A stretch of 64,000 nt of DNA from Phycisphaerales bacterium (GTDB lineage: Bacteria; Planctomycetota; Phycisphaerae; Tepidisphaerales; Tepidisphaeraceae), in the NCBI GenBank assembly GCA_020853095.1, contig JADYZN010000043.1:98662-162661 (forward strand). The letters are read 5' to 3'. The notes beneath the pieces are model-generated. The model was not told the DNA's origin. It ran no database searches and saw nothing but the letters and a program-made list of their open reading frames with translations. Each line of letters opens with the position of its first letter. Positions within the stretch are counted from its first letter, which is position 1. The position numbers and the translations under genes are program-made. This document shows positions 3,996-12,490 of this stretch, one piece after another.

Positions 3996-5180
3996 TCATT
4001 GGGTTGCCAACGACGGCGCCGGCGGGTCGCGCGGCGGCTTGTCGTGGCCGCCGTTCCCCGTCGGGATATTAAAAAACGCGATGGCCAGAATACCGTAGAC
4101 GCCCAGCAACAGCACGCCCTCGAACCAGTTGGTCTGCGCATCCATCCCCAGCACCACGACAATTCCGACGCACAGCAGCACCGCCACCACCTCCATGGGG
4201 GAAAAAATAAGGTCCATTGGTTCGCCCGGCTGCCATCCGAGATTCACCATCAGGGTGCTCAGCAGGACCAGCACCGGCACGGCGAACAGGGCGATCTGGA
4301 GGCTGCTCTGGTTGGTGATGGTCAGGGCGGTGTCCATGTCGTTGCGGTTGGCCAGCAGGATGGCCGTGGAATGTTCGGCGGCGTTGCCGATGATCGCCAG
4401 CAGGATCACGCCGACGAAAATTTCGTTCCAGCCGAGCTGATGCGCCATCTGTTCGGCCGATCCAACCAGCAGTTCGGCGACGATCCCGATGCCGGCCGAC
4501 GCCAGCAGCAACATGCCGACCGATCGTCCGACCGACCAGTGGCCATTGAGATGCGAAACGCCGGGGTGATCTTCCGGGCTTTGGGCGGGCCTTCGCGAGA
4601 AGATGTGCGCGTGGGTTTTCAACGTGAAGACAAGCCCCAGGGCGTAGACGGCCAGCAGGAGAACGCTGGTCCACAGCGAGACGCTGTGTTCGTGGACGAC
4701 CCGTTGGGCATCGTTCATCTGGATGGCGGTGAAATGGAAAATCGCCGGGAACAACATGCCGGCCACCGCCAGCATGAGCAGGCCGGCGCTGGTTTCGCCC
4801 GACATGCGGTTGAACGTCTGTTTTTCGCGTTTCCATCCGCCCACCAGCATTGATGCGCCGGCCACCAGCAGCAGATTGCCCAGGATCGATCCGGTCAGCG
4901 AGGCTTTGACGATGCCGTTGAGGCCCTTGGTCAGCGCGATGATGGCGATGATCAATTCGGCCGCGTTGCCGAAGGTGGCGTTGAGCAGGCCGCCCCAGGT
5001 GGGGCCGGTGCGTTCGGCCAGATGTTCGGTGGCGACGCCCATCAACCCGGCGAGCGGGATCACGCCGATGCCCGCCAGCGCGAACGTGGCCATCGGTTCC
5101 CATTCGTATTGCCGCAACAGGAAATGGCACACGAACGCCAGCGGAATCGCCAGGTAGGTTCCGTATTTCAGATAACGCAT
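3996..5180 (-). CDS. cax: Calcium/proton antiporter, CaxA type
   Basis: A 394-residue inner-membrane protein with about eleven hydrophobic segments and the diagnostic CaCA-family repeat GLLNATFGNAAELII near the N-terminus, mirrored by EIFVGVILLAIIGNAAEHS in the C-terminal half. These alpha repeats form the ion path of Ca2+/H+ (cation/proton) antiporters, which use the proton gradient to expel calcium. The ATG at 5180 starts the conserved segment MRYLKYGTYLAIPLAF; a TTG at 5216 in the same frame overlaps the preceding stop and is an alternative start. No clear ribosome binding site precedes either. Confidence 0.9.
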   Translation of the reverse strand: MRYLKYGTYLAIPLAFVCHFLLRQYEWEPMATFALAGIGVIPLAGLMGVATEHLAERTGPTWGGLLNATFGNAAELIIAIIALTKGLNGIVKASLTGSILGNLLLVAGASMLVGGWKREKQTFNRMSGETSAGLLMLAVAGMLFPAIFHFTAIQMNDAQRVVHEHSVSLWTSVLLLAVYALGLVFTLKTHAHIFSRRPAQSPEDHPGVSHLNGHWSVGRSVGMLLLASAGIGIVAELLVGSAEQMAHQLGWNEIFVGVILLAIIGNAAEHSTAILLANRNDMDTALTITNQSSLQIALFAVPVLVLLSTLMVNLGWQPGEPMDLIFSPMEVVAVLLCVGIVVVLGMDAQTNWFEGVLLLGVYGILAIAFFNIPTGNGGHDKPPRDPPAPSLATQ

Positions 5181-8855: not shown

Positions 8856-11051
8856 CTATTGCGTCGCCGGCCGGGTGTCGGGGTTTTGCGACGGTTCGGC
8901 TTCGGCGTGGACCAGCGGGCTGATGACCTGCACCGGTATTTCCGGGGGCAGCAGCGATTCCAGCCGCCTTTGGAAATGACCTTTGATCAGGTGGTACAAC
9001 GCCCCCTGTCGGCTGGTCCCGATCAGCACCTTCTGGCATCCGTAAATCGCCGCATTTTCGGCCATCAGCACGGCCGCATCCGGGCCGGTGTCGTAGACCG
9101 GCAGAATCGCCACCCCCATTTCGTGTCCGAATTCAAGGAATTTCGCGAACGTCTTCAACGCCGCCAGGTCGTTGTCGATGTTCAGGCGCTTGTCATATTG
9201 ATAAGACAGCGCCACCTGCCGGATGAAACAGACCACCAGCGTGCAATCGTTGCGTTTGGCTTCTTCCAGCGCCGCCGTCGCCAGGGCTTCGGAACCGTAG
9301 GTTCCCAGCAGCATCTTCGGACGGGCCAGCGCCTCGCCCGTCAACTGTTCCATGATCGCCTGCCGCAACAGGCTTGGTTTTGCTCCGTGGTGCGCGCCCC
9401 ACCATTTGGTCAATGCCCGGGCGCTCAATCCCACGGCCATCACGATCAAAACGAACGCCAGCGCATGCAGTTTCGTGAAGGCCAGCGTCACCCAGATTGC
9501 CAGCAGGAAGACCCCCAGGATCAACATCGGGGCCTTGCGGTGCATTCGCCGCAGCCGCGGATGAAACGCGCACAATGACACGTTGATCGCCACGGCGCCG
9601 ATCACGCCGATCGCGTACAGCGCAGCCAGACTCTCCAGGTCATGGCTGACCACCAGCACCAGGATCGGCACCGCCGTCGCCAGGATCGCAGCCACCCACG
9701 GGGCGCCAAAACGATTCACCTTTACGAAGACGCTCGGCAATTCCCCATCTCGTGCCACGACGTACACAATGCTCATCAGCCCGTTGACGGCCGTGTTTCC
9801 CGCCGACAACAGCAGCAGTCCGCCCACAATTCGCACGCCCCATTCGCCCCAGGCTCCGACGTACTGCCCGCTCATGAACGCCAGCATGTCGTTGACGTGC
9901 TGTTCGCGATCCAGCGGGAAAATCGCCAGCATGATTACCGACAGGATGATGTTGAAGATCGCCACCTCCAGCGCCACCACCCAGATCGCCCGACGGGCGG
10001 TGTGGGCCACCGGCTTTTTCATCACACCGGTCAGGTTTGCGATCGCCTCCACACCGGACAACGCCAGCACGATGGATACGAACGCAACCCACATGTGGGA
10101 AAACGACTGGTCCAGACTGCCAAGCCGATGCGGCAGTTCCGACCAGTCGATTTTCCCTGAAAAAATCGCGCTGCACGAAATCAACAGCGTGATGAAGACC
10201 ATCCCCAGCGCCGCGAAGATCGCAAACCCCCCCATGTGTTTTGGTCCCAGCAGGTTGAACAGGCCGATCACCGCGATGGCGATGATCGCCCACAACCCCG
10301 GCGAATCCCATGCCAGAAGTTTGTCTCCCGGCGGCTCCTGTGTGCTTTCATAAAGTTGCTGGATCGCGTTCTGGTAGGGCGGGTCGGGCGATAGTTCGCG
10401 AAGTCGATCCCGCTCGGCCGCGGTCATCTCCCGCTCAAAAACCAACATGCTTTTCCCGATAAACGTCAAATGATGGGTCAGGGGGTCGTAGCGTAATAAT
10501 TTGTGAAACACCGGTGAATTTTCCACGCCGTCCGGCAATGCTTTCAATCGGACGTGCTTCTGTTCACGGTCGGATTCAACGTGGTCCCCCGCATCCTGCA
10601 CCTTGACGCTTTCACCTGTGTTGGCGGCGTTGCGGGCTTCTTCGTTCTGGACGTGTTTTTGCAAAGGCAGGCCGAAATAATGGAACCCATCCAGGACGCT
10701 CAGGCTGGCGGTCACGGTGTAATCGGCGAACAACAGCAGCGCCCCGATCACCGCCAGCGTTCGGCTGCGGCTTTTGGCGGCCGTATAGACGCCCCCTCCA
10801 TCCGGATAGATTCGACAAATCTGCGTGTAGGCCCAGCCGACCGCGACGATCAGCAGGCTCATCAGCAAAATCAGGTAAAAGCTGGTTCGGCCGGCGAACA
10901 AAAACGCCAGCCCCAGCACGTACAACCGGCTGGTTCCCCAATCGCCAAACAACAAACCCGCCGCCTGAAGCCAACCCACGTTTCGAGGACGTTCACTGGC
11001 CAGCAACGACAAGGCCGCGGGTTTGCCGCGACCGTTTTCCGAATCGCTCAT
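8856..11051 (-). CDS. KimA-like APC transporter with Usp-like C-terminal domain
   Basis: A 731-residue inner-membrane protein. The transmembrane core has APC-superfamily features also seen in the Bacillus potassium importer KimA (formerly YdaO): the glycine-rich IYPDGGGVYTAAKS (residues 81-94) and LLFADYTVTASLSVLDG (105-121). The C-terminal 140 residues look like a universal stress protein domain (KVLIGTSRQGALYHLIKG), the arrangement found in KimA. Residues about 131-250 form a charged insertion with no membrane segments, which I do not know from KimA. A c-di-AMP riboswitch lies in the leader, which strongly favours potassium (or compatible-solute) uptake over general amino acid transport. 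An amino acid substrate is not excluded. Confidence 0.8.
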   Translation of the reverse strand: MSDSENGRGKPAALSLLASERPRNVGWLQAAGLLFGDWGTSRLYVLGLAFLFAGRTSFYLILLMSLLIVAVGWAYTQICRIYPDGGGVYTAAKSRSRTLAVIGALLLFADYTVTASLSVLDGFHYFGLPLQKHVQNEEARNAANTGESVKVQDAGDHVESDREQKHVRLKALPDGVENSPVFHKLLRYDPLTHHLTFIGKSMLVFEREMTAAERDRLRELSPDPPYQNAIQQLYESTQEPPGDKLLAWDSPGLWAIIAIAVIGLFNLLGPKHMGGFAIFAALGMVFITLLISCSAIFSGKIDWSELPHRLGSLDQSFSHMWVAFVSIVLALSGVEAIANLTGVMKKPVAHTARRAIWVVALEVAIFNIILSVIMLAIFPLDREQHVNDMLAFMSGQYVGAWGEWGVRIVGGLLLLSAGNTAVNGLMSIVYVVARDGELPSVFVKVNRFGAPWVAAILATAVPILVLVVSHDLESLAALYAIGVIGAVAINVSLCAFHPRLRRMHRKAPMLILGVFLLAIWVTLAFTKLHALAFVLIVMAVGLSARALTKWWGAHHGAKPSLLRQAIMEQLTGEALARPKMLLGTYGSEALATAALEEAKRNDCTLVVCFIRQVALSYQYDKRLNIDNDLAALKTFAKFLEFGHEMGVAILPVYDTGPDAAVLMAENAAIYGCQKVLIGTSRQGALYHLIKGHFQRRLESLLPPEIPVQVISPLVHAEAEPSQNPDTRPATQ

Positions 11052-11220
11052 TGTTCTTGTGTCCGAACCCAGGCCGACGGCTTTGGTTCGCGGTCCTGCC
11101 TGCGAACGAATGCCGACTGCCTGTTCACCGCACGACGTTTGCCCGGTATCGGCCGGCTGTTGTGAATGAAGCCGGCCGCAGGAGGAGCTGGACGTTGTGC
11201 CCTTTCAGGACAGCGTCAAT

Positions 11221-11256
11221 CCCTGACATTCCGGCGAAGAATCACCCGAATCAGGG
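11221..11256 (-). promoter_or_regulatory. Hairpin downstream of the riboswitch, possible expression platform
   Basis: On the minus strand CCCTGATTC (11256 downward) can pair with GAATgTCAGGG (down to 11221) around a 10-15 nt loop, giving a stem of about 10 bp with one bulge and a mismatch. It lies directly after the aptamer and about 170 nt before the transporter start. There is no U-tract after it, so it is not a standard intrinsic terminator; it may be part of a Rho-dependent or translational switch. Confidence 0.4.
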
Positions 11257-11268
11257 GACTTGTGCTGT

Positions 11269-11422
11269 CGATCGCCTGCGAGGTTAGCTGACGGGCTGGG
11301 GCCTGAAAGTGCCCTGGAATCTTTGCTGCGACTCCTGCGCCCCGGGTCTGGCCGGTCCTTTGCCCGGCCGCGACCTTATTATGGGTTCCCCGCACCGGGC
11401 CATCGGCCTGGTTTCGGCGGTC
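11269..11422 (-). ncRNA. Cyclic di-AMP riboswitch (ydaO/yuaA class)
   Basis: Read on the minus strand, this segment holds the two conserved blocks of the ydaO/yuaA aptamer in the right order: a GGGGAACCCA block at 11382-11391 and, about 90 nt later, CGTCAGCTAACCTCGCAGGC within 11273-11294. The outer P1 helix can form between the CCGCC near 11416-11421 and the GGCG near 11273-11276. The Bacillus subtilis ydaO aptamer has the equivalent GGGGGACCCA and CCGTCAGCTAACCTCG blocks. In known cases cyclic di-AMP binding turns expression off. Downstream of it lies the KimA-like transporter gene, a classical target. Structure was judged by eye only. Confidence 0.88.
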
Positions 11423-11434
11423 ACTGAAGACAGT

Positions 11435-11464
11435 ACCGTAAACCCCCCGTCCCCAGTATGTCAA
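11435..11464 (-). promoter_or_regulatory. Promoter of the riboswitch-transporter transcript
   Basis: On the minus strand there is a perfect -35 TTGACA (11464-11459), an 18-bp spacer and a -10 TACGGT (11440-11435). The predicted transcription start near 11428 falls just upstream of the 5' strand of the riboswitch P1 helix, which supports both calls. Confidence 0.6.
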
Positions 11465-11493: not shown

Positions 11494-11521
11494 TTGACAG
11501 TTTAACGCCCTCTATTACGAT
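11494..11521 (+). promoter_or_regulatory. Promoter of the coiled-coil protein gene
   Basis: A perfect -35 TTGACA (11494-11499), a 16-bp spacer and a -10 TACGAT (11516-11521) lie about 100 bp before the TTG start at 11624. It is divergent from the riboswitch promoter, and the two -35 boxes are only about 30 bp apart, so the promoters could influence each other. Confidence 0.6.
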
Positions 11522-11623: not shown

Positions 11624-12490
11624 TTGAGCGCCCTCACCAAATTGTTTGTTGTACTACTGGTTGTATGTTCGATGCTTTTGACGGCATCGGTGGTGGTATT
11701 CGTCAACAAAGTTGAGAATTTCGCCCAGACCAATAAGCAGCTTGACGCCCAGCTTGCGGAGGCTCGACGGCTTAAAGAGCAGGGTCAGGCCGACCTGAGC
11801 GCCGCCAATGTGCGGGCCGAGCAGGCGATTGCCCAGGCATCCCAGCAGATCAGCGAAAAGAACACGCAGATCAACGGTTTGCAGCAAAAAGTGGCCGAGC
11901 AGGGCGTGCAGGTTGCCGACCTGTCGAGCAAGGTGCAGTTGCAGGCACTGGCGTTGACTCAGGCCACCGAAGGCCAAAAAGCCGCCCAGGACATGGCCGG
12001 CCGGTTGCACGATCAGACCGGAACGTTGCGCAACACGCTGGATCAGTTGACCAAAAACAACAGCGACCTAAACGCCACGGTTTCCGACCTGACCAACAAG
12101 CTCGAAGTCACCACCCGCGACCTGCGGTTTACCCGCGAGCAGTTGACCGAGGCCCAGAACACCAGCGAAAAACTGGCCGCCAAGGTGCGTGATCTGGGCG
12201 GCAATCCCAGCCAACTGGCCTCGGCCGGGACCAAGGCCGGCGCGCCGGCCATCAACGGGGTCGTCCGCGATGTTCGCACCATCGAAGGCGTTCCCTACGC
12301 CACCATCTCGGTTGGCTCGTCCGATAACGTCACCAAGGGAATGCAGTTCAACGTCATCGACCGCGATCGGGGCGTGTTCCTGGGCATTTTGACCGTGGAC
12401 ACCGTTGAGCCTAACGAGTCGCTCGGCCGTCTTGAAGGTCCGCGCACCGGCGAGATTCGCTCTGGCAGCGAAGTCCGCACCCAGTTGTAA
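11624..12490 (+). CDS. Membrane-anchored coiled-coil protein
   Basis: A 288-residue protein with one N-terminal membrane segment (FVVLLVVCSMLLTASVVVFV), a long coiled coil from about residue 30 to 195 rich in Q, A, L and N, and a compact C-terminal domain (GVVRDVRTIEGVPYATISVG, then NVTKGMQFNVIDRDRGVFLG) that resembles the small beta-barrel at the end of MreC- or FlgT-like proteins. The start is TTG at 11624, preceded by AAGGAG at 11613-11618 with proper spacing. It probably projects into the periplasm as a structural or scaffolding element. The exact family is not recognised. A tiny membrane protein gene follows in the same direction. Confidence 0.7.
   Translation: MSALTKLFVVLLVVCSMLLTASVVVFVNKVENFAQTNKQLDAQLAEARRLKEQGQADLSAANVRAEQAIAQASQQISEKNTQINGLQQKVAEQGVQVADLSSKVQLQALALTQATEGQKAAQDMAGRLHDQTGTLRNTLDQLTKNNSDLNATVSDLTNKLEVTTRDLRFTREQLTEAQNTSEKLAAKVRDLGGNPSQLASAGTKAGAPAINGVVRDVRTIEGVPYATISVGSSDNVTKGMQFNVIDRDRGVFLGILTVDTVEPNESLGRLEGPRTGEIRSGSEVRTQL

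Follow-up and report, generated by a model that had tools for sequence, protein, structure and literature searches.

Most known examples of the c-di-AMP/potassium circuit come from Firmicutes, actinobacteria and cyanobacteria, and the presence of a c-di-AMP riboswitch in front of a transporter gene in the window (the whole 64,000-nucleotide stretch of a Phycisphaerales contig analysed here) raises the questions of what the riboswitch controls in a planctomycete and by what means it would do so. We consider it likely, with a probability of roughly 0.8, that a riboswitch of family RF00379 here controls a KUP-family K+/H+ symporter belonging to a clade beside KimA in a Phycisphaerae planctomycete.

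The preliminary description had claimed a ydaO/yuaA aptamer, and the Rfam covariance model agrees: cmscan matches RF00379 (the c-di-AMP/ydaO riboswitch) at 61.1 bits (E 1e-11) against a gathering cut-off of 38 bits, with the model covered over its full length (positions 1–134 of 134), and this is the only Rfam match in the window. The conserved core of the RF00379 alignment corresponds to the blocks GGGGAACCCA and CGTCAGCTAACCTCGCAGGC picked out earlier, and the interval given then, 11269–11464, comprises the aptamer together with its promoter, the 3′ edge of the aptamer lying 11 nt lower. Judged by its sequence, the window aptamer adds a new member to RF00379 and is predicted to bind c-di-AMP; the transporter gene starts 206 nt downstream of it (Table 1). 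The proposed TTGACA/TACGGT promoter is present upstream of the aptamer with a spacing of 18; its TACGGT fits the −10 consensus at only three of six positions and the promoter falls under the scanner threshold, so that it is unlisted, and a similar pair, TTGAC-N16–18-TAnnnT, occurs at the equivalent place in most orthologous leaders. The intergenic region that holds the riboswitch also contains a divergent promoter-like site (TTGACA-16-TACGAT, 11494–11521, + strand), and a 288-residue coiled-coil gene (11624–12490, + strand) departs from this region in the opposite direction.

Table 1. Features of the riboswitch–transporter locus, in window positions.
Feature	Position	Strand	Basis
KimA-related gene for a predicted KUP-type K+/H+ symporter, 731 residues, 12-TM APC fold with Usp-like cytosolic domain	8856..11051	−	Sequence, profile and fold matches
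Hairpin 2 (P-D), apical loop GCAGGA (11094–11099) complementary to the UCCUGC bulge	11070..11123	−	Folding; covariation of arms
Conserved platform element (match of covariance model R1)	11084..11208	−	Covariance model; distribution
Hairpin 1, stems P-A, P-B and P-C, bulge UCCUGC (11178–11183)	11130..11200	−	Folding; covariation of P-C
Non-conserved spacer hairpin separating aptamer from platform	11209..11257	−	Missing or different in relatives
c-di-AMP riboswitch aptamer RF00379 with long hairpin insert	11258..11429	−	61.1 bits against gathering threshold of 38
CGCAGG, 3′ strand of aptamer P1 and junction; candidate alternative partner CCUGCG (11177–11182)	11275..11280	−	Complementarity; folding energies
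Promoter, TTGACA (11459–11464), 18-nt spacer, TACGGT (11435–11440)	11435..11464	−	Sequence; recurrence in orthologous leaders

The genome, which had been called planctomycete-like from its letters, is indeed of this kind, with the 12 named proteins nearest to the transporter all coming from Phycisphaerae or Planctomycetota MAGs (identity up to 86%). The window's own assembly has a completeness of 96%, contains two copies of RF00379, and encodes one c-di-AMP synthase (DAC) domain (PF02457, E 1.7e-36), by which the host is predicted to make c-di-AMP. Contamination is unlikely because the arrangement of aptamer and gene recurs across the class in many MAGs that are independent of one another. The position of the aptamer in the 5′ leader of a gene of the K+, osmotic or cell-wall kind is kept across relatives; RF00379 precedes the orthologous gene over the cut-off in seven of them (L004, L006, L008, L009, L011, L013 and L015) and just below it in an eighth (L012). 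More than one transporter copy per locus is seen in L006, L008, L009 and L011; in L006, L009 and L011 the riboswitch sits between tandem copies, and RF00379 over the cut-off was not found directly before the first paralogues of these three arrays. In L008 there are back-to-back divergent c-di-AMP riboswitches (4231–4443 on the − strand and 4545–4709 on the + strand, about 100 bp between them), and L005 and L007 each have a minus-strand riboswitch copy upstream of the transporter.

How the aptamer would act on the gene is suggested by a second conserved element in the leader, which the preliminary description missed. Its consensus is UGAAAGRGCACRACG..GCUCUCCUGC-(hairpin)-CGAGC..CGUYGUGCG-(hairpin with loop GCAGGA), and when each sequence was folded on its own (MFE), the same two hairpins came back in most leaders. 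The arms of P-C and of P-D covary: when 3′ arms were exchanged between leaders, with near-duplicates removed, the mean energy went from −16.1 kcal/mol for cognate arms to −9.8 kcal/mol for swapped arms in P-D, and from −15.2 to −8.9 kcal/mol in P-C, with none of 5000 permutations as good in either case; arm extraction followed simple rules and in the larger set went wrong once, for L004. Covariation is not significant in P-A and P-B, which are too conserved for it; they are paired in 90% of cells as against 14–57% when slid. The long-range UCCUG/CAGGA pairing is near-invariant, and its covariation support comes mainly from one leader, L078, in which both partners have shifted together to CCUUCC/GGAAGG.

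The covariance model finds the platform in 12 of 298 genomes of the class at E ≤ 1.4e-6, each time directly after RF00379; three more matches near 1e-3 in these genomes look like chance, and there is no solid match outside the class among 304 genomes of the phylum. Five leaders left out of the building of the model are recovered by it (L075, L013, L011, L098 and L078; E 2e-20 to 1.5e-5). The platform is found ahead of the KUP-type genes of one family and the TrkH-type genes of two more, and because it is shared before both types of gene, aptamer and platform behave as one module; a conserved structured platform common to the leaders of unrelated transporters could reveal switching other than by a plain terminator. 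No platform could be recognized in L081 and L083, where the aptamer is present together with a member of the same gene family.

Several identities for the platform were considered and rejected. No Rfam 15 family matches it at E ≤ 1, those up to 10 being at chance level; it is not an independent mobile element, as its solid matches never lie away from RF00379; an intrinsic terminator is not found after the aptamer on the − strand, where the sole listed site (11013–11033) lies inside the gene; and neither reading frame nor spacing is conserved in the way that a small leader ORF or a Shine-Dalgarno role for GCAGGA would predict. Neither a U-rich terminator nor an obvious Shine-Dalgarno sequence adjoins the platform. 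With no family in Rfam 15 and no matching description found, the platform is a previously uncatalogued RNA element.

The element probably serves a c-di-AMP OFF switch as its expression platform, deciding between on and off. Transcription would start just upstream of the aptamer. At high K+, and hence high c-di-AMP, the aptamer would close with the P1 strand CGCAGG occupied, and the leader would form the two hairpins, joined by the UCCUGC bulge and the GCAGGA loop, in which state expression would be OFF; at low c-di-AMP, CGCAGG could instead pair with CCUGCG, breaking the platform and allowing the importer to be made. We infer the ligand binding and the switching pairing, as well as the output, which may be transcriptional or translational. 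The OFF direction in the planctomycete leader is suggested by analogy with B. subtilis, where c-di-AMP represses kimA and ktrAB through this riboswitch (PMC10284832). When P1 and P2 of the aptamer are enforced, the downstream leader folds into exactly the two platform hairpins at −167.9 kcal/mol; with the CGCAGG–CCUGCG pairing forced the energy is −170.6 kcal/mol, and the unconstrained fold is at −174.0 kcal/mol. The native and alternative states are within 3 kcal/mol, in energies that leave out ligand and tertiary contacts and so speak to the plausibility of a switch only.

We think it unlikely that the two-hairpin element is instead a second, independent sensor, that is, an orphan aptamer for K+ or another osmotic signal, for example, within a two-input tandem riboswitch. 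Independent aptamers normally also occur alone, whereas this element was never found apart from RF00379; moreover, there is no separate terminator or ribosome-binding site between it and the aptamer, and its bulge is complementary to an aptamer strand. Its aptamer-like look (conserved loops and bulges, covarying stems, predicted long-range pairing) and its occurrence in both KUP-type and TrkH-type leaders would suit a sensor, as would the existence of tandem Na+/c-di-AMP riboswitches (PMC9337991), and if there were a second aptamer it would make a switch with two inputs, c-di-AMP plus a second ligand, on planctomycete K+ importers. It seems similarly doubtful that the apical loop GCAGGA serves as a site for CsrA/RsmA, with control of the platform lying with CsrA and not with RNA–RNA pairing. 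The signature of CsrA sites is (A)NGGA in a hairpin loop, which the GCAGGA loop bears, and there are two csrA genes in the genome; however, L011 has kept the complementarity (CCUGC/GCAGG) and lost the GGA (GCAGGU), the partners in L078 change in concert, and in most leaders the loop lies at least 40 nt from the start codon.

The reading that we prefer, a c-di-AMP switch acting on a K+ importer, has parallels elsewhere in the phylum. The suggestion that this locus would extend the c-di-AMP/K+ link to another phylum proves right and understated, in that RF00379 is present in 46 of 392 genomes drawn from Planctomycetota (and in 66 of 298 drawn from the class), with K+ genes behind it; c-di-AMP synthase is present in 361 of the 392. 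The 102 genes behind RF00379 include 27 of TrkH type, at least 40 APC/KUP, six KdpA, one Kup and five Band_7, these counts being lower bounds with the gene in each case chosen mechanically as the longest frame. Among the genes that follow RF00379 in the phylum, those for K+ systems predominate, and the c-di-AMP/potassium circuit is laid out in Planctomycetota as a regulon, with KUP-type, TrkH, KdpA and Kup genes behind one aptamer type. We found no open-access paper linking c-di-AMP riboswitches to Planctomycetota; the Rfam member list may already include such species.

Genes of other kinds also lie behind the aptamer. In L016, L043, L100, L102, L103 and L116 the riboswitch precedes genes for large membrane proteins, the majority of which have an SPFH/Band_7 (flotillin-like) domain, and we know of no SPFH/Band_7 protein among c-di-AMP riboswitch targets; in L041 and L063 it precedes HAMP/PAS sensor proteins, one of them a histidine kinase. 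The second riboswitch of the window's own genome (51 bits; G000:C67:32364–32558, − strand, and L046 8034–8249, − strand) is followed by a 72-residue protein with no Pfam match. Homologues are present in 11 genomes of the same family, with RF00379 close upstream in 11 of 11, and the 72-residue protein is thus apparently a conserved small protein under c-di-AMP control. Small-protein leaders (L082, L084, L086, L088, L089, L092, L093 and L096) share a different platform, a GGGATCAACGC/GCGTTTCGATCC hairpin just past the aptamer. Some have a T-rich run behind this hairpin, and most have an AAGGAG-type ribosome site before the start codon.

There remains the identity of the transporter itself, which the preliminary description gave as a KimA-like importer with a Usp-like tail and the classical target of this riboswitch. 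The resemblance to KimA stands. B. subtilis KimA is the sole PDB sequence relative of the window protein (single sequence; profile E 2.3e-14), and its structures 8b70, 8b71 and 6s3k are the three best Foldseek matches (E 4e-14 to 5e-12), two of them with bound c-di-AMP; the AlphaFold model, of moderate confidence (mean pLDDT 68.7), has a KimA-like fold with a cytosolic C-terminal domain. As for the tail, no Pfam match to it was obtained in the window protein, but PF00582 is matched in the Usp-like tails of sister proteins. The functional residues of KimA have been named, and KimA is without the VFGD/IYGD motif of other KUP proteins (PMC6994465). Residues D36, Y43, D117, Y118 and T121 of KimA correspond to D37, Y44, D110, Y111 and T114 in the window protein, and S125, E233, N237 and Y377 to S118, E335, N339 and Y479, all invariant or nearly so in 16 sequences, so that the acidic and polar K+/H+ residues of the KUP family (D36, D117, E233, Y43, T121 and Y377) are all present; D36 and Y43 were placed by a D-x6-Y register as in Kup, the phmmer register at TM1 being different. 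T230 is replaced by S332. It is very improbable that the gene encodes an ordinary amino-acid permease of the APC superfamily and not a K+ transporter, since although amino-acid permease models are its best Pfam (AA_permease_2) and NCBIfam matches, KimA is the only sequence match in the PDB, the KUP signature LFGDWGTSRLY in TM1 aligns with a true Kup of the same class, the K+/H+ residues are retained, and the RF00379 regulon of the phylum is mostly K+ uptake.

The notion of a classical target, in contrast, goes too far. A second planctomycete group behind RF00379 matches KimA at 4.4e-75, compared with 2.3e-14 for the window family, which is therefore not the closest to B. subtilis KimA among the KUP/APC proteins of the phylum; in profile comparison it lies close to a third group (6e-138 for A8), with KimA proper far away (3e-15). 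Because that other group is far nearer to KimA, and because the KUP TM1 motif is present, the window protein is, on sequence grounds, a KUP-type transporter of a sister clade to KimA and not KimA itself, with K+ transport predicted.

Compared with KimA of B. subtilis (6s3k, 8b70, 8b71), it shares the 12-TM KUP/APC fold with a cytosolic C-terminal domain, the K+ and H+ residues and a c-di-AMP riboswitch upstream, but is distant in sequence and has the GD motif in TM1. It also has serine (Ser440, variable in the family) at the position of the c-di-AMP-contacting Arg337, a residue that is non-essential for c-di-AMP inhibition of KimA (PMC10284832), and, following TM3, an insert some 110 residues long (residues ~131–243, coding 10323–10661) that is probably extracellular and that no species but that of the window and L004 has at full length. 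With the Kup/HAK/KT transporters (PF02705) it shares the TM1 motif FGD.GTS.LY and the essential acidic residues, but it has no Pfam K_trans match, its tail is Usp-like and not K_trans_C, and its pairwise match with planctomycete Kup is confined to the TM1 motif. A close parallel to the proposed switch is the Dehalobacter tandem Na+-I/c-di-AMP riboswitch, in which the right strand of P1 was proposed to compete with a regulatory hairpin (PMC9337991), and here too that strand can pair with the regulatory hairpin that follows; there, however, the second element is upstream with its own terminator, whereas the window element has no Rfam match. Relative to the ydaO/yuaA (RF00379) leaders of kimA and ktrAB in B. 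subtilis, the window leader matches the whole 134-position model and has a K+ importer behind it, but differs in its planctomycete host, in the long hairpin insert of the aptamer, and in having a two-hairpin platform in place of an intrinsic terminator.
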